Below are positions 12 to 8,355 of a stretch of 8,578 nucleotides of DNA, piece by piece. Position numbers and translations under genes: made by a program. The DNA lies in NCBI GenBank assembly GCA_003697085.1, contig RFFU01000051.1:1-8578 (forward strand), in the 5' to 3' direction. The notes beneath the pieces are model-generated. The model saw only the letters and a list, made by a program, of their open reading frames with translations, made no database searches and had not been told where the DNA came from. Source of the DNA: Candidatus Hydrogenedentota bacterium (GTDB taxonomy: Bacteria > UBA8481 > J006). Every line of letters begins with the position of its first letter. Position 1 is the first letter of the stretch.

Positions 12-3000
12 ATGGCGCCATTGACAGAATCCGACCTTGAAATTGCTACGTTAGATTATTTCCGCGGGCTTGGCTATTCCTACGTTCATGGGCCGGAGAT
101 TGCGCCTGACGGGGAATCGCCCGAACGGGAGGACTACGGCCAGGTCGTGCTTGTCGGCCGGTTGCGGGATGCGCTGGGGCGGATCAATCCCGACGTACCA
201 GCCGAAGCGATCGAAGAGGTTGTCCGAAAAGTCACCCGGCCCGAGAGCCCGTCGCTTGTCGTCAATAACCGTGCCTTCCACCGGATGATCACGGACGGCG
301 TCGATGTGTCCTGGCGCGAAGACGGCCGCGAGCGGCACGGAAAGGTATGGCTGATCGAACGTGATCCCGCGAAGATCGAGGCCAACGAGTTCCTGGTCGT
401 CAACCAGTTCACCGTCATTGAAGAGAAACGGAACCGTCGTCCCGACGTGGTGGTCTTCGTGAACGGGCTACCCCTCGCCGTGATTGAACTCAAGAACCCG
501 TCGGAAGAGAAAACCACGATCCGCCAGGCCTATAACCAGTTTCAGACCTACAAGACCGAGATCCCGATTCTTTTCACATATAACGAAATCCTCGTTATTT
601 CCGACGGCTTTGCCGCGCGGGCAGGTACCCTGACGTCTGGTTGGGACCGGTTTATGCCCTGGCGCACGATTGACGGCAAGAGAATGGCGCCGGCCGGGGA
701 GGTACAACTTGAAGTTCTCGTCAAAGGCATTTTTGAACGGAACCGTTTCCTTGATTATATCCAAAACTTCATCGCCTTCGAGGACGACGGCAGGGAGATC
801 GCCAAAAAAGCCGCCGCCTATCACCAATACTGGGCGGTGAACAAGGCGGTGGAATGCACCATAAAAGCCAGCCGTCCGGACGGCGATCGCCGAATTGGCG
901 TTGTGTGGCATACCCAGGGATCGGGCAAGAGTTTGTCAATGACCTTCTTCGCGGGAAAGATCATCAAGCACCCTGCGATGGAGAACCCGACGCTCGTTGT
1001 CATCACCGATCGGAACGACCTGGACAATCAGCTCTACGGGACCTTCAGCGTCAACAGCGATCTGCTCCGGCAGAAACCCGAGCAGGCCGACAGCCGGGAA
1101 CATCTCAAGGATTTGCTGCGGGTCGCCTCGGGCGGGGTTGTCTTCACTACGCTCCAGAAGTTCGAGGGCGGAGAGGCGCTAAGCGAACGCCATAACATCG
1201 TTGTTATTGCCGACGAGGCCCACCGAAGCCATTATGGTTTCAGCGCCCGGTTCGACAAAGCGAGCGGCGAAATCAAGTACGGCATGGCGAAATACCTGCG
1301 CGATGCGCTCCCCAACGCTTCGTTCATCGGGTTCACCGGCACCCCGATTGAGTTGGACGACAAGAGCACGCCCGGCGTCTTCGGCGATTACATCGATAAA
1401 TACGACATTCTCCGTGCCGTCGAAGACGGGGCAACGGTCCCGATCTACTATGAGTCGCGCCTGGCCCGGATTGAACTGAGTGAGGAAGAGAAGCCACGCA
1501 TCGATCCGGCGTTCGAGGAGATTACCGAGGGTGAGGAAGAGGAAGCGAAACACAAACTCAAGACGAAATGGGCCGCCCTGGAAGCCATGGTCGGCACAGA
1601 GAAGCGCATCGGGCTTGTCGCGCGAGATATTGTCGATCACTTCGAGAAACGCCTGGCCGTACTGCAGGGCAAGGGCATGATCGTGTGCATGTCGCGGCGC
1701 ATCTGCGTGGAGATGTACAATGCAATCACCAAGATTCGGCCGGACTGGCACGACGAAGACGACGCCCGGGGTGAGATCAAGATCGTCATGAGCGGCTCCG
1801 CATCAGATGAACCCTCGTGGCAGCCGCACATCCGTACGAAGGCGGCGCGTGAAGAGATCGCCAGGCGATTCAAAGATCCGGACGATCCGCTCAAACTCGT
1901 CATCGTGCGCGACATGTGGTTGACCGGGTTCGATTGTCCCAGCATGCACACGATGTACCTCGACAAACCTATGACCGGACACAATCTCATGCAGGCCATC
2001 GCCCGTGTGAACCGTGTCTTCAAGGACAAACCCGGCGGCCTCGTGGTGGACTACCTCGGTGTCGCCGATGCGCTGAAGAACGCGCTCAAGACCTACACCG
2101 CCAGCGGCGGCAAAGGCACGGCCACTATCGACCAGGAACAGGCGGCCGCGGTGATGATGGAGAAGTACGAGATTGTCCGCGATATGCTGCACGGGTATGA
2201 CTACAAGTGTATCCTGACGACCGAAGCAGCTGACCGCATGGCCGCCATCGCCCAAGCCATGGAGTTCATCCTCGGACTGGAGGATGGAAAGAAACGATAT
2301 CTCAAGGCCGTCGCCGCCTTGTCCAAGGCCTTTGCATTGGCGGCGCCCCACGACAAAACGGCTGCGATCCGTGACGAGGTCGGCCTCTTCCAGGAAATCC
2401 GGTCTGCCATCGTCAAGGCGACCGTTTCCGAGTCCGACAAGACGCCCGACGAGTTGGAGTCGGCGATACGCCAGCTCGTCTCGAAGGCGGTTTACTCGAC
2501 GGAGGTCGTGGATATCTTCGCGGCCGCCGGACTGGAGAAGCCGGACATTTCCATCCTGTCCGATGAGTTTCTCGCCGAGATCCGGCAGTTACCCCACCGC
2601 AACCTGGCCCTGGAACTTTTGAAGAAACTCATCAACGACGAAATCAGAACGCACATGCGGAAGAACGTCGTCCAGGCGCGATCATTCGCGGAGATGTTGG
2701 AGCAGGCCGTCCGCAAGTACCAGAACCGGGCCATCGAGGCCGCCCAGGTCATCGATGAACTGATCAAGTTGGCAAAGGATATCCGCAAAGCGCAGGTCCG
2801 CGGTAAGGAACTCGGTCTCACGGATGACGAAGTCGCGTTTTATGACGCCCTTGCGGACAATGAAAGCGCCCGCGATATCATGGGTGACGAGAAACTTCGA
2901 TTCCTGGCGCAGGAACTTGTCAGTCGCGTCAAGCAAAGCGTCTCCATCGACTGGCAGGTGCGGCAGAATGCCCGAGCCCAGATCCGCATTCTCGTGAAGC

Positions 3001-3629
3001 GCATTCTACGGAAACACGGATACCCGCCGGATATGCAGCAGCGCGCAACGGAACTGGTCCTCGAACAGGCCGAAGTGCTCTGCAAGGACTGGTCGGAAGA
3101 AGCGCCATCCACCAAAGATGAGGGGCTTGAATCATCTCCAGTCAAGAAGATCTCGATCATTGAAGACATTCCCGAAACCGACAAGTACAAGACGTTTGTA
3201 CCTGTTTATAACCTGAAGGCGGCAGCCGGCGCTTTCGGCGACATCCAGCAGGTTGAGCCCGACGGCTGGGTGGAAATCAAGACCCGGCGGCGCCTTCAAC
3301 CCGGGATGTTCGTTGCGCAGGTCGTCGGCAAGTCGATGGAACCGCTTATTCCGGATTCATCCTATTGCCTGTTCCGTTCGCCGGTCGAGGGCTCCCGGCA
3401 GGGACGCGTGGTGCTTGCCCAGCTTCTGAATGACGTGGATCCAGAGTGCGGCGAGCGCTACACGGTTAAACGATATCGGAGTGAAAAACGGGAAACCGAA
3501 GAGGAATGGCGGCATACGAAGGTCGTTCTGGAACCTGAGAACAGTGATTTCGATCCAATCGTGTTTACCGAAAACCCTGATGACTGCCTCCGGATCATCG
3601 CCGAATTTGTTGAGGTCGTAGAATCATAA
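12..3629 (+). CDS. hsdR: Type I restriction endonuclease subunit R (HsdR) fused to a C-terminal S24/LexA-like peptidase domain
   Basis: This is the motor and nuclease subunit of a type I restriction-modification complex, which translocates unmethylated DNA using ATP and cuts it at a distance. Over 1205 residues one sees: an N-terminal HsdR nuclease domain with D145, E159-L-K161 and a QxxxY motif (Q176-Y180); a superfamily 2 helicase core with Walker A GSGKS (303-307), DEAH (401-404), motif III FTGTP (441-445) and motif [10 protein letters not shown] (661-668); an alpha-helical C-terminal region (about 700-1025, DUF3387-like); an acidic linker (about 1026-1058); then an S24 domain (about 1060-1203). 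The S24 part has S1108 in GKSMEP, K1153 in YTVKRY, and an Ala-Gly pair at 1072/1073. HsdR proteins are usually about 1000-1100 residues, so the tail is extra. The ATG start fits the family's N-terminus (TESDLE...); no Shine-Dalgarno is visible in the 11 bases before it, and the frame stays open to the window edge. HsdM and HsdS are not in the window. Confidence 0.95.
3189..3626 (+). other. S24 (LexA/UmuD-like) serine peptidase domain at the HsdR C-terminus
   Basis: This is a domain within the HsdR fusion, roughly residues 1060-1205. The candidate scissile bond is A1072-G1073 (codons at 3225 and 3228) in the context LKAAAGAFG. The candidate nucleophile is S1108 (codon 3333) in [12 protein letters not shown] and the general-base lysine is K1153 (codon 3468) in YTVKRY. 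From Gly to Ser is 35 residues, matching UmuD (G25 to S60) and within one of LexA (G85 to S119). From Ser to Lys is 45 residues, against 37 in LexA and UmuD, so about 8 residues are inserted. No helix-turn-helix precedes the domain, so it is not a repressor. Self-cleavage is inferred from the motifs; nothing here shows it happens. Confidence 0.85.
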
Positions 3630-3951: not shown

Positions 3952-3971
3952 AAAATACTCGCGAGTAATTT
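3952..3971. promoter_or_regulatory. 20-bp near-perfect palindrome abutting the ATPase promoter
   Basis: AAAATACTCG (3952-3961) faces CGAGTAATTT (3962-3971). Nine of ten base pairs match; the exception is an A opposite A at the seventh pair from the centre. It has no loop, so it suits a dimeric DNA-binding protein better than an RNA hairpin. It ends on the first base of the TTGACA -35 element, a position suited to repression or activation. The regulator is unknown. A short bidirectional terminator is a weaker alternative. Confidence 0.5.
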
Positions 3972-3999
3972 TGACAATAGTGGAAAATAGTAGTAGGAT
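3971..3999 (+). promoter_or_regulatory. Sigma-70-like promoter for the DUF4143 ATPase gene
   Basis: A perfect -35 TTGACA (3971-3976) is separated by 17 bases from TAGGAT (3994-3999), which matches the TATAAT consensus at four of six positions. Transcription would begin near 4006-4007, at or next to the ATG at 4007, so the mRNA would have little or no leader. Because the TTG of the -35 box could be read as an alternative start codon (3971), this promoter also argues for the downstream ATG. Confidence 0.5.
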
Positions 4000-4006
4000 C
4001 GGTGTG

Positions 4007-5128
4007 ATGAGGACGTGGAAGCGATATCTGGAACGGCAGGTTCAACGAGACCTAAACCGGAAGATGGTGTTTGTCGGCGGTCCCCGGCAGGTCGGAAAAA
4101 CGACGATGAGCCGCCGGATTCTCGGCCGGAGAAGGGGTTATCTGAACTGGGACATTCCCGAGGATCGCGAGGCGATCCTGAAAAGAATACTCCCGGATAC
4201 TTCGATGTGGGTCTTCGATGAACTGCACAAATATAGGAAGTGGCGAAACTACCTCAAAGGCCTCTACGATCAGTATTACGAAACAAAGAAGATACTGGTG
4301 ACGGGTAGCGCGCGCCTCGACCTCTATCGCTTTGGAGGCGATTCTCTTCAGGGGCGTTATCACTATTTGAGACTGCATCCCTTCTCCGCCGGCGAACTCG
4401 GGATCGACGATCAAGACGGAATGGAAACACTCTTGCATCTCGGAGGTTTCCCGGAACCGTTTCTCGGGGGTTCGGAGGTAGAGGCGCGGAGATGGTCCCG
4501 CGAATACCGGGCCCGTCTCATCGAGGAAGAGATCGGTTCCCTGGAGCGGATTCAGGATCTCGGGACGCTCGAGTTGTTGATGTTGAGGCTTCCCGAGCTC
4601 GTCGGCAGTCCTCTCTCGATCAATGCCCTACGCGAGGATCTCCAGGTGGCTCACAGTACGGTGGCGGGTTGGTTGGAAGTTTTCGAGCGGACCTACGCCA
4701 TCTTCCGCCTTTCCCCGTTCGGCGCTCCGAGGATTCGAGCCGTAAAAAAGGAACGGAAGCATTATCATTTCGATTGGACGCTTGTTGAGGAGCCGGCGGC
4801 TCGTTTTGAGAAAATGGTGGCTTGTCATCTTCTCAAATGGGTCCATTTTCAACAGGATTCAAAGGGAGAAGATATCGAACTGCGATATTTTCGGGATGTT
4901 GATCGGCGCGAGGTGGATTTCGTCCTTACGCGGAAAAACCGGCCGATCCAGTTCATCGAATGCAAACTCGGTGACACCGGCGTCGATCGCGGTCTGCGTT
5001 ACCTCAAGGAACGTTTTCCGGAGGTTCCGGCTTTTCAGGTCTCGCTGAGAGGGAAGACCGACCGCCTCGCGACGCGCGAGAAGATTCGGTTGTTGCCCGC
5101 GTGGAGGTATCTCCGGAATCTGGTTTGA
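4007..5128 (+). CDS. AAA_14/DUF4143-family ATP-binding protein
   Basis: The 373-residue protein has an N-terminal P-loop ATPase domain with Walker A GGPRQVGKTT (24-33), Walker B WVFDEL (68-73; D71, E72) and a sensor-like LVTGSAR (97-103). A helical middle region (about 165-250) follows, then a C-terminal DUF4143 region with VDF (303-305) and IECK (317-320), a D...ExK pattern like that of PD-(D/E)xK nuclease folds. The order and length are typical of the AAA_14 plus DUF4143 family, which is widespread, often horizontally spread, and of no settled function. The ATG at 4007 is preferred: family members begin shortly before the strand leading to Walker A, and the longer frame from TTG 3971 overlaps the promoter. 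No strong Shine-Dalgarno precedes it. Its own promoter and the repeat-filled gap separate it from hsdR, so it is probably not part of the restriction operon. Confidence 0.9.
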   Translation: MRTWKRYLERQVQRDLNRKMVFVGGPRQVGKTTMSRRILGRRRGYLNWDIPEDREAILKRILPDTSMWVFDELHKYRKWRNYLKGLYDQYYETKKILVTGSARLDLYRFGGDSLQGRYHYLRLHPFSAGELGIDDQDGMETLLHLGGFPEPFLGGSEVEARRWSREYRARLIEEEIGSLERIQDLGTLELLMLRLPELVGSPLSINALREDLQVAHSTVAGWLEVFERTYAIFRLSPFGAPRIRAVKKERKHYHFDWTLVEEPAARFEKMVACHLLKWVHFQQDSKGEDIELRYFRDVDRREVDFVLTRKNRPIQFIECKLGDTGVDRGLRYLKERFPEVPAFQVSLRGKTDRLATREKIRLLPAWRYLRNLV

Positions 5129-5342: not shown

Positions 5343-6779
5343 TTACACTTCCGTTCCTCGAATACGGACGACGAGAAGCCGAATCTCGGTCATATCCTCG
5401 ATCGCCCAACGGATGCCCTCACGTCCGAGACCGCTCTCCTTGACGCCGCCGTAGGGCATATGGTCCACGCGCCAGGAGGGGATATCGCCGATCACGACGC
5501 CTCCCACCTCGAGTTCATCCCAGGCGCGGTGCATCTTGTAGAGATCGCGCGTGAAGAGGCCGGCCTGGAGGCCGAAACGGCTGTTGTTCACCTCGGCCAA
5601 CGCGGCGCTGAAGTCGCTGAACCGCGAAAGAACCGCCACCGGTCCGAAGGCTTCCTTACAGGAAATCGGTTCGTCCCTCGGGACGTTTTCAAGCAGCGTC
5701 GCCTCGAGCATCGCGCCGTCCCGTTTTCCCCCACAAAGAAGACGCGCTCCCTTCCGGACCGCGCTCGCGATCCATTCCTCCAGTCGCCGGGCTTCCTTCT
5801 CGGAGATCATCGGACCGAGGAAGGTCTTCTCGTCCCGGGGATCGCCGGCGATGAGTTTTCCCGTTTCCGTCACCAAACGATCGCGGAACTCGTCATAGAC
5901 GTCCTCGTGGATCAGGATTCTCTGAACGCCGATGCAGCTCTGGCCGGACTGATAGAAGGCGCCGATCAAGATCCGCTCGACGGCGTCGGCGAGATCAGCG
6001 TCTCGGTCCACGATGACAGCGGCGTTGCCACCCAGTTCCAAAACAACCTTCTTCTTTCCGGCGCGGGCCTTGAGGGCCCACCCGACCTCGGGAGAACCGG
6101 TGAAGCTCAGGAGTTTGAGCCGTTCGTCGGTCGTGAAGAGATCGGCGCCGTCGCGGCGGCAGGGAAGAATCGAAAAGGCTCCTTTGGGAAGTGAGGTTTC
6201 CGCGAGAGTTTCTCCGATCAAGAGGGCGCCGATCGGCGTGAGGCTGGCGGGCTTGAGAACGAAGGGGCATCCCGCGGCGATGGCCGGCGCGATCTTGTGC
6301 GCCGCGAGGTTCAGAGGAAAATTAAAAGGTGAAATAAAACTGCAGGGACCGACGGGAACGCGTTTCCAGTAACCGCGGTAACCGCGGGCGCGCGGACTGA
6401 TATCGAGCGGCAGCACCTCGCCGAGGATCCGCACGGATTCTTCAGCGGCGATCCGAAAGGTGTCGATCAACCGCGAGACTTCGCCGCGCGCGTCGCGGAT
6501 CGGTTTCCCCGCTTCGATGCAAAGCGTTTCCGCCAATTCCTCGAAACGCTCCTCGAATCTCTTCACACAATGCAAAAGGATGTCCCGGCGTTCATACGCG
6601 GGGAGCCGAGCCATCTCCGGTGCCGCCTTCGCCGCGGCCGCTATACCACGGTCGATCGCTTCCGCATCCGCCAGCGCCACGCGACAGACCGGTTTCCCTG
6701 AATATTTGTCCAGGACCTCCAAGCCCTCGTTCGCCTGCACAGGCTCGCTTCCCAGATAATACGGATAGACGTCCTTCAT
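5343..6779 (-). CDS. NAD(P)-dependent aldehyde dehydrogenase, lactaldehyde dehydrogenase/GapN-like
   Basis: This is a complete 478-residue member of the aldehyde dehydrogenase superfamily, cytosolic, oxidising an aldehyde to the acid with NAD(P)+. Visible catalytic parts are N153 in PFNFPLN, K176 in LKPAS (cofactor binding), the FTGS turn (226-229), general base E248 in LELGGN, nucleophile C282 in GQSCIG, E376 in CKEAFGP (cofactor ribose), and the C-terminal PYGGVKESGLGREG (442-455). The pattern around PFNFPLNLAAHKIAPAIAAG and the C-terminus most resembles archaeal lactaldehyde dehydrogenases and non-phosphorylating GAPDH-like enzymes, as recalled. The substrate cannot be fixed from sequence. 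The ATG start is supported by a strong Shine-Dalgarno eight bases upstream. The gene lies 143 bp downstream of a nucleoside transporter on the same strand, so co-transcription is likely, and an aldehyde from pentose or deoxyribose breakdown is a plausible but unproven substrate. Confidence 0.93.
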   Translation of the reverse strand: MKDVYPYYLGSEPVQANEGLEVLDKYSGKPVCRVALADAEAIDRGIAAAAKAAPEMARLPAYERRDILLHCVKRFEERFEELAETLCIEAGKPIRDARGEVSRLIDTFRIAAEESVRILGEVLPLDISPRARGYRGYWKRVPVGPCSFISPFNFPLNLAAHKIAPAIAAGCPFVLKPASLTPIGALLIGETLAETSLPKGAFSILPCRRDGADLFTTDERLKLLSFTGSPEVGWALKARAGKKKVVLELGGNAAVIVDRDADLADAVERILIGAFYQSGQSCIGVQRILIHEDVYDEFRDRLVTETGKLIAGDPRDEKTFLGPMISEKEARRLEEWIASAVRKGARLLCGGKRDGAMLEATLLENVPRDEPISCKEAFGPVAVLSRFSDFSAALAEVNNSRFGLQAGLFTRDLYKMHRAWDELEVGGVVIGDIPSWRVDHMPYGGVKESGLGREGIRWAIEDMTEIRLLVVRIRGTEV

Positions 6780-6922: not shown

Positions 6923-8326
6923 CTATTTCGCCGGTTCGATATTCGCTTCCGATGCTTCCGAAACGGCGGCGGGAGGAGCCGCGGTCGGCTTGAGGATCGT
7001 CTCTCCGTTGTAGAAGACCCCCGCGACGTTGCCGGTCAAATAGGCCGCCAGTGCGCCGGCGACCATCGCCCGCATTCCGAGTTTGGCGAGATCACCGCGG
7101 CGGGAAGGGGCGATCCCGCTGATGCCTCCGATCTGAATCGCGATCGAGGCGAAATTGGCGAAGCCGCAGAGACCGTACGTGACGATCACGACGGAGCGCG
7201 GATCGAGCGACACGGCGGGATCGGCGAGCAGCGTCTTGAGATCGATGTACGCGAAGAATTCCGTCAAGACCAGCTTCTCGCCGAGCAAGCGGCCGACGAG
7301 GAAGCAGTCCTTGACAGGAACCCCCATTATCCACGCCAGCGGCATATGGAGATAACCGAGAATGTTCTGGAGCGTCAGATTCGAGAGAATCTCGTGCGGC
7401 TTCCCGGAAAAGAAACGCGCAAGATGATCGCCGACCCAGTCGAGCCCGAAGTTGACCATCGCGATCAAGGCCGTGAAAGCGATCAACATCGCGGCGACGT
7501 TGAGCGCCAGTGTCATTCCGCTCGAGGCCCCCCCGGCGGCGGCGTCGAGTACGTTGACGTCCTTCACCTCGACCGCCATCTTCACCTCGCCTCGCGTCAC
7601 CGGCTCCTCCGTCTCCGGAAGCATCACCTTCGCCATAACGAGCGCGGCGGGGGCGGAAAGCACGCTGGCGGATATGAGATGCCCCGCGATGTTGGGAAAG
7701 TACGGCTTCAGAAAGAAGACGTAGGCTCCCATCACGCCCCCCGCAACCGTCGCGAATCCTCCCGTCATCACCGCCATCAACTCGGACATCGTCATCTTCT
7801 CGACATAGGGCCGAATCACCAAAGGAGCCTCCGTCTGGCCCACGAAGATGTTTGCAGAGGCCGAGAGCGACTCGGCTCCCGAGGTCCCCATCGTGATGTT
7901 CATAATCTTGGCGAAGAACTCGACGATCTTCTGCATAAAACCGAGGTAGTAGGCGACCGACATCAGGGAGGAGAAGAAGATGATCGTCGTCAAGACCTGG
8001 AACGCGAAGAAGAAACCGAGCGATTTCGTGCCGGTTCCGAAAGACCCTTGCCACGGAGACTGGTCCATCGGAACGGCCAGCGCGTTGAAGACGAAGACGC
8101 TTCCCTCGATGGTGAAATTGAGAAGCCCGGTGATGAGGTCATTGAGAAAGGCGAAGAGCGCCCGGCCCGGAGCCGTCCGCAAAACCAACACGGCGAAGAT
8201 GAGTTGGAGGATGATTCCCCAACACACGACCCGCCACGGAAAACGCTTCCTGTCCGTCGAAAAAAGCCAACCGATACCAATGATGGCGGGGATCCCCAGA
8301 AGGCTGATCAGATTCTCGGTGTTCAT
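6923..8326 (-). CDS. Concentrative nucleoside transporter, CNT/NupC family
   Basis: This 467-residue inner-membrane protein couples nucleoside uptake to an ion gradient (Na+ or H+). The family is recognised from GQTEAP (163-168), which corresponds to the ion- and nucleoside-binding hairpin of CNT proteins; TEFFAY (355-360) after RLLGEK; and GFANFASIAIQIGG (388-401), the second re-entrant/substrate region. Hydrophobic segments are visible at about 6-23, 33-50, 103-124, 187-206, 214-235, 272-292, 378-401 and 420-438. A polar loop at about 240-262 and a low-complexity Ala/Pro/Glu-rich tail from about 446 are extramembrane. ATG 8326 is chosen over the upstream TTG at 8350 because GGGAGGT lies 4 bases before it; a GTG immediately preceding (8329) is a less likely start. 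It is the first gene of a probable two-gene unit with the downstream aldehyde dehydrogenase. Purine versus pyrimidine preference cannot be told from what I can see. Confidence 0.93.
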   Translation of the reverse strand: MNTENLISLLGIPAIIGIGWLFSTDRKRFPWRVVCWGIILQLIFAVLVLRTAPGRALFAFLNDLITGLLNFTIEGSVFVFNALAVPMDQSPWQGSFGTGTKSLGFFFAFQVLTTIIFFSSLMSVAYYLGFMQKIVEFFAKIMNITMGTSGAESLSASANIFVGQTEAPLVIRPYVEKMTMSELMAVMTGGFATVAGGVMGAYVFFLKPYFPNIAGHLISASVLSAPAALVMAKVMLPETEEPVTRGEVKMAVEVKDVNVLDAAAGGASSGMTLALNVAAMLIAFTALIAMVNFGLDWVGDHLARFFSGKPHEILSNLTLQNILGYLHMPLAWIMGVPVKDCFLVGRLLGEKLVLTEFFAYIDLKTLLADPAVSLDPRSVVIVTYGLCGFANFASIAIQIGGISGIAPSRRGDLAKLGMRAMVAGALAAYLTGNVAGVFYNGETILKPTAAPPAAVSEASEANIEPAK

Positions 8327-8330
8327 CACG

Positions 8331-8337
8331 ACCTCCC
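8331..8337 (-). promoter_or_regulatory. Shine-Dalgarno of the nucleoside transporter gene
   Basis: Minus-strand GGGAGGT ends four bases before the ATG at 8326. The upstream TTG at 8350 has no comparable site, so this element decides the start. Confidence 0.7.
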
Positions 8338-8355
8338 ACTCTCGTATCAATGCAG

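Follow-up and report, generated by a model that had tools for sequence, protein, structure and literature searches.

A predicted S24 autoprotease tail shared by the restriction subunit HsdR and unrelated defence enzymes: a possible damage-responsive switch

Introduction

How are immune enzymes that destroy DNA kept from killing a host whose own DNA is damaged or unmodified? This question is raised by a locus in an 8,578-nucleotide stretch of DNA from a Candidatus Hydrogenedentota bacterium (contig RFFU01000051.1, forward strand; hereafter the window). The window encodes the type I restriction subunit HsdR, and it had been predicted from the sequence alone that this protein ends in a LexA-like, self-cleaving module of Peptidase family S24. 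S24 proteins self-cleave when they are bound to RecA-ssDNA. We found no description of S24 tails on restriction enzymes in the literature searched, a body with few preprints or subscription papers, and such tails are not described in the reviews of type I systems and restriction biology that were examined, or in one paper each on SOS autopeptidases, a YprA helicase and Druantia III.

Results

The HsdR protein of the window is complete and has an additional C-terminal domain

The hsdR gene (positions 12 to 3629, forward strand, as are all of its features given below) codes for a protein of 1205 amino acids, which matches the hsdR model TIGR00348 with 642.6 bits (cut-off 284.55) and the PADLOC model REase_I with 1199.9 bits over residues 4-1028. 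It starts with an HSDR_N nuclease domain (residues 4-212, positions 21 to 647; PF04313, 172.2 bits), in which the PD...ELK motif is present at residues 144-161 and the QxxxY motif as QFQTY at residue 176. This is followed by a SWI2/SNF2 motor domain (residues 271-513, positions 822 to 1550; PF18766, 261.7 bits) with an intact GSGKS motif at residue 303 and DEAH at residue 401, a T1R_D3-like second motor domain (residues 610-681, positions 1839 to 2054; PF22679, 75.5 bits) and a helical T1RH-like_C domain (residues 698-1025, positions 2103 to 3086; PF11867, 449 bits). HsdR proteins that lack a tail stop at about this point. The PADLOC model is likewise exhausted at residue 1028, and the remaining 177 residues are an extension made up of a linker without a Pfam match (residues 1026-1057, positions 3087 to 3182) and the S24 domain. 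Residues 4-1025 make up an entire type I restriction subunit, to which a C-terminal Peptidase_S24 domain is added. When a related HsdR was modelled in full length, the model was poor (pLDDT 61) and uninformative on docking, and the equivalent linker had low confidence in it.

The hsdM and hsdS genes are not visible in the window because the contig, which belongs to a draft assembly, begins 11 bases before the hsdR start codon; no PF02384 methylase was found in this assembly. In related loci, for example L030 and L024, HsdS genes adjoin the tail-bearing hsdR, and relatives such as the L060 or L077 type have hsdM and hsdS intact. Downstream of hsdR, the window contains a gene for an AAA_14/DUF4143 ATPase of 385 amino acids (positions 3971 to 5128, forward strand) and two ordinary metabolic genes on the reverse strand, coding for a lactaldehyde/semialdehyde-type aldehyde dehydrogenase (5343 to 6779) and a NupC/NupG-like nucleoside transporter (6923 to 8350). 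Both RecA and a typical LexA are encoded in the host genome.

The tail has the profile, the predicted fold and the residues of an S24 autoprotease

The tail itself comprises residues 1058-1205 (positions 3183 to 3626). Peptidase_S24 (PF00717) is matched at residues 1069-1199 with 28.9 bits when the whole protein is searched and with 34.6 bits when residues 1040-1205 are searched alone, in both cases above the Pfam cut-off of 23.3. An AlphaFold2 model of the tail, built with 46 relatives, has a mean pLDDT of 92.7 and a pTM of 0.87. When this model was compared with solved structures (Foldseek, VIA-align), LexA was the top match, with a Z score of 12.7 over 127 residues for the Thermotoga protein and of 12.2 for E. 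coli LexA. The RecA-bound structures of LexA (8gms, Z 11.6), lambda CI (8gmu, 11.5) and UmuD (8gmt, 10.2) were matched as well, and signal peptidases far lower, at a Z of about 6. A fold unlike S24, which would have spoken against the original prediction, is not what the model indicates. A phmmer search of PDB sequences gave no match, and the score of the LexA equivalog TIGR00498, 17-18 bits, fell far short of its cut-off of 110.95; the N-terminal partner of the domain is HsdR, not a LexA-type helix-turn-helix (HTH) domain.

The residues named in the original prediction are all found in their predicted places. These are the putative scissile bond Ala1072-Gly1073 (positions 3225 to 3230), the putative nucleophile Ser1108 (3333 to 3335) and the putative general base Lys1153 (3468 to 3470), with a Gly-to-Ser spacing of 35 and a Ser-to-Lys spacing of 45 residues. 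Counted from the predicted bond, cleavage would release a fragment of 133 residues (3228 to 3626). By its profile, its modelled fold and its predicted Ser-Lys dyad with a small-residue scissile bond N-terminal of the dyad, the tail is a member of Peptidase family S24. A chance match or artefact was rejected in view of the score above the cut-off, the high-confidence model, the 92 tails that could be aligned and the single open frame. By our own rough estimate, it is very probable that the tail is an active autoprotease.

The catalytic residues are invariant and the tails are under purifying selection

We aligned 92 tails, including that of the window, over 153 columns. Only seven columns are fully invariant, namely Leu1068, Ala1072, Phe1100, Gly1106, Ser1108, Met1109 and Lys1153, and these include the predicted P1 alanine and both residues of the dyad, which are kept in 92 of 92 tails. 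The original proposal of an intact catalytic apparatus is supported, and homologues without Ser, Lys or the P1 Ala, whose regular occurrence would have counted against an autoprotease, were not encountered. At P1', Gly is found in 84 tails, Ser in five and Thr in three, and these eight exceptions count against the switch proposed below. P2 is Ala in 90 of the 92 tails, so that the predicted product would end in AA; canonical S24 proteins, where legible, are mixed at this position.

The peptide patterns used to scan the collection left out the three catalytic and cleavage residues, and the search did therefore not force their conservation, although the retention of the best 80 of the 199 relatives found in this one-genome-per-species scan favours close relatives. 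In tails found with a profile instead of patterns, Ser and Lys are kept wherever the stretch is readable, and the P1 Ala wherever it is in view. The dN/dS ratio of the tail is 0.07-0.27 in 14 pairs and is usually somewhat higher than that of the body of the same protein. An invariant dyad and P1 residue together with a low dN/dS are the pattern that a working protease would show, and a purely structural domain need not keep these residues. For the family, the same two observations led us to reject a decayed tail. Fragments and broken copies do exist (L010, L031 and L178). The last of these, on Halomonas sp. PA16-9 plasmid NZ_CP040452.1, was the sole plasmid match, and its matched tail lies outside any long open frame, so that this copy looks broken.

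The tails form a distinct S24 subfamily carried by unrelated defence proteins

A search with the tail alone gave matches in ten of 192 diverse genomes, including that of the window, mostly in long open frames, and a search with a profile of the tails gave matches in 18 of 386 genomes (13 of 333 in the high-quality subset). At E <= 0.001, the tail profile picked out one to three members in each of 17 carrier genomes and passed over their other S24 proteins. The weakest match in the 386 genomes (L165, 7.4e-7) resembles an ordinary LexA-type protein. Ordinary S24 matches in 60 genomes lie in frames of 111-359 amino acids, and all S24 frames longer than 400 amino acids belong to the tail subfamily. 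An accidental fusion of an ordinary LexA was rejected, as the matches of the tail profile are almost confined to this subfamily in genomes that have other S24 proteins as well.

That the fusion might be recurrent had been suggested in the original prediction, and this is borne out. According to Pfam and PADLOC, which were run on the carriers or on cluster representatives, with the remaining carriers assigned by BLAST clustering, the tail is found on two HsdR subtypes, DruE-like helicases (Druantia; DEAD and MZB), type ISP enzymes, DrmMI-like methylases (DISARM), type III Res proteins, Schlafen-g3 helicases and HTH_3 repressors. One of the DruE-like carriers (L068) comes from a cultured strain, Marinobacter aromaticivorans D15-8P. 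A trait of the window HsdR alone was rejected because of this recurrence on several unrelated defence proteins, and a phage module was rejected because 50,697 phage records gave no match and viral contigs gave only three. Five HTH_3 repressors belong to the same S24 subfamily (L076 7641-8471, L104 7641-8474, L106 7671-8492, L036 418-1410 and L174 3165-3911), which makes transcription control also part of the family. The tail was originally viewed as attached to a DNA-cutting motor; this holds for HsdR, but the tail is not special to motors, as methylase/specificity proteins and unrelated defence enzymes share it. In most type ISP and in the DrmMI-like cases, it sits on a methylase/specificity protein next to a separate partner gene, which points to the restriction complex, and not to the nuclease or motor as such, as the common factor.

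The tail is nearly always located at the extreme C-terminus of its carrier, with a predicted fragment of about 131-163 residues; in the exceptions L105 and L109, the protein continues for about 199 residues beyond it. In these two loci, from metagenome bins named Chloroflexi and Actinomycetes, the type ISP proteins have tails identical to each other, due to either recent transfer or mis-binning. Another type ISP protein with an S24 tail (L044 3399-8441, forward strand) lies in an open frame in which the IS200-like transposase family (Y1_Tnp) is matched as well, at residues 652-728, and a short frame in L062 (7752-8432, forward strand) combines a weak PIN-domain match with an S24 tail. The neighbours of the tail loci are the expected partners, HsdS, HsdM, Mod, helicase and ATPase genes, and the survey revealed no additional gene common to all carrier types. 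In tail-bearing hsdR loci (L033, L060, L070, L075, L087, L088 and others), a gene for an ATPase-like protein (about 420 amino acids; with a P-loop start in L070) is often found upstream and a gene of about 216 amino acids just upstream of hsdR, resembling an extended type I operon.

The tail appears to have moved between systems and is dispensable for a complete HsdR

In a tree of the tails, the carrier classes are intermixed, with 30 carrier changes against a minimum of 13, and well-supported branches force at least six changes for HsdR and at least four each for DruE-like and type ISP carriers; the bootstrap values behind both counts are not fully settled. This intermixing indicates that the module moved between systems. 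One genome, G030, codes for three different tailed enzymes. Among 11 close full-length HsdR proteins of the window subtype, only two, those of the window and of G030, are encoded by a frame of sufficient length for the tail, and the tail-less homologues are 981-1112 amino acids long. In the other subtype, a tail-less HsdR that is 74% identical to the tailed L077 protein ends where the linker would begin, and no S24 remnant was found downstream of it. As this relative ends cleanly before the tail, the tail seems to be dispensable for a complete HsdR, and by these sequence comparisons an enzyme that is complete without it has either gained it or lost it.

Discussion

Sequence comparisons and structural models support an S24 domain with the expected fold, intact catalytic residues, purifying selection, recurrence and dispensability on the HsdR of the window and its relatives. 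We tentatively propose that the tail of HsdR is a damage-responsive autoprotease switch, which is triggered by RecA and after whose cleavage HsdR is removed by ClpXP. RecA-ssDNA filaments would form when the host is damaged, when the enzyme itself makes breaks or during recombination, and would induce the tail to cut its own Ala1072-Gly1073 bond by means of Ser1108 and Lys1153. The 133-residue fragment would be freed and the truncated HsdR would end in ...LKAAA-COOH. Cleaved LexA ends in VAA and ssrA-tagged proteins in LAA, both of which are recognised by ClpXP, and cleaved LexA is reportedly a ClpXP substrate (Neher et al. 2003, as cited in PMC4231737). The AA-COOH end of HsdR might be read in the same way, in which case ClpXP would remove the restriction subunit while the methylase survives, resulting in restriction alleviation within the enzyme. 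We infer the occurrence of cleavage, the removal by ClpXP, the role of RecA and the OFF direction; by our rough personal estimates, a RecA-type trigger is somewhat more likely than not, and for the direction, which is undecidable from sequence, we lean only slightly towards OFF.

OFF appears probable because the truncated HsdR would offer ClpXP an AA-COOH end like those of cleaved LexA and ssrA-tagged proteins, an argument that is weak, as P2 may be conserved for packing. Cleavage could equally turn the enzyme on, since loss of the tail restores a near-natural, tail-less and presumably active HsdR. In this main rival, the tail restrains the enzyme, and cleavage triggered by RecA filaments during phage attack or DNA uptake, in which phage infection can generate ssDNA, frees the active form. 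The tail-less homologues are complete enzymes, so that cleavage would give a near-ancestral form, and UmuD, the closest regulatory precedent outside the repressors, is activated by cleavage (PMC3765255). However, DNA damage leads to the suppression of type I restriction, which hosts need under these conditions (PMC3874165), DNA cutting turned on by host damage would be self-harming, and the predicted product end is almost uniformly AA. We regard an activation switch as rather unlikely.

The tail could also serve to localise or assemble the complex by binding RecA filaments or another S24 tail, either on a second HsdR or on a partner, with cleavage being incidental. S24 domains dimerise and bind RecA filaments, RecA-bound LexA, UmuD and CI are among the fold matches, and methylase/specificity proteins are also tailed. 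Docking alone, however, needs neither Ser, Lys nor the P1 Ala, all three of which are among the seven invariant columns, and we consider it improbable. Still less probable, in our view, is a constitutive maturation, in which the tail self-cleaves soon after folding and aids folding or assembly only, with no signal involved. S24 proteins can self-cleave without RecA at high pH, and a tail that is nearly always C-terminal is the last part to be made, but its presence on HTH repressors of the LexA/CI layout suggests a signal-dependent role. We give equally little weight to the idea that damage or infection is sensed independently of RecA, with cleavage being induced by some other filament, by a phage protein or by ssDNA to which the enzyme itself is bound. 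In its favour, the proteins that carry the tail are DNA motors or bind DNA, and the subfamily stands apart from LexA, since ordinary S24 proteins encoded in the same genomes were almost never picked up by the tail profile; against this, the nearest solved folds are those of RecA-regulated proteins, and RecA is present in the host.

The components are known; what appears to be new is the architecture, in which immune enzymes unrelated to one another share an autoprotease tail. The presence of this tail on several kinds of anti-virus enzyme suggests that damage to a cell's own DNA switches immunity off (or on) by a common route that has so far gone undescribed. The same cassette has been attached to other restriction-type systems. 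We speculate, more tentatively than for HsdR alone, that it is a mobile, self-cleaving element which type I, type III, type ISP, DISARM-like, Druantia-like and Schlafen-helicase systems acquired independently of each other, and that it commonly serves to control immunity in response to damage, so that a RecA-filament signal could switch several unrelated defences of one cell together. If true, the shared LexA-like tail would be a direct molecular link from the SOS signal to immunity, and this would explain a fusion that recurs across many phyla and is absent from the literature searched.

Compared with known systems, the domain resembles LexA in its modelled fold (Z 12.7), its Ala-Gly bond, its Ser/Lys dyad and a VKR motif around the Lys, but it is located at the C-terminus of a restriction enzyme, whereas the S24 domain of LexA follows an HTH domain, and its equivalog score is 17-18 bits as opposed to the required 110.95. 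With UmuD it shares the fold (Z 10.2), the catalytic residues and the prospect of regulating an enzyme and not transcription; UmuD, however, forms a subunit of its own and has an N-terminal arm, while the protease of the window is fused, with the enzyme N-terminal of the cut. As a type I HsdR (TIGR00348, T1RH-like_C subtype), the protein has the complete body with all motifs and differs by its 177-residue S24 extension beyond the end of the PADLOC model near residue 1028, for which two of the 11 sampled proteins have room. In the restriction alleviation of EcoKI, ClpXP degrades HsdR in translocating complexes (PMC4231737), and removal of HsdR by proteolysis to protect host DNA is what we propose, and only propose, for the enzyme of the window. 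The E. coli process needs no S24 tail and targets individual translocating complexes, not a general SOS signal, and its protease is external, with a degron on HsdR that was sought but not found (PMC4231737), whereas the enzyme of the window has a predicted self-cleaving domain built in. Finally, the five HTH_3 members of the subfamily (L036, L076, L104, L106 and L174) have the layout of CI-like HTH_3-S24 repressors, whereas most subfamily members found are fused to defence enzymes.
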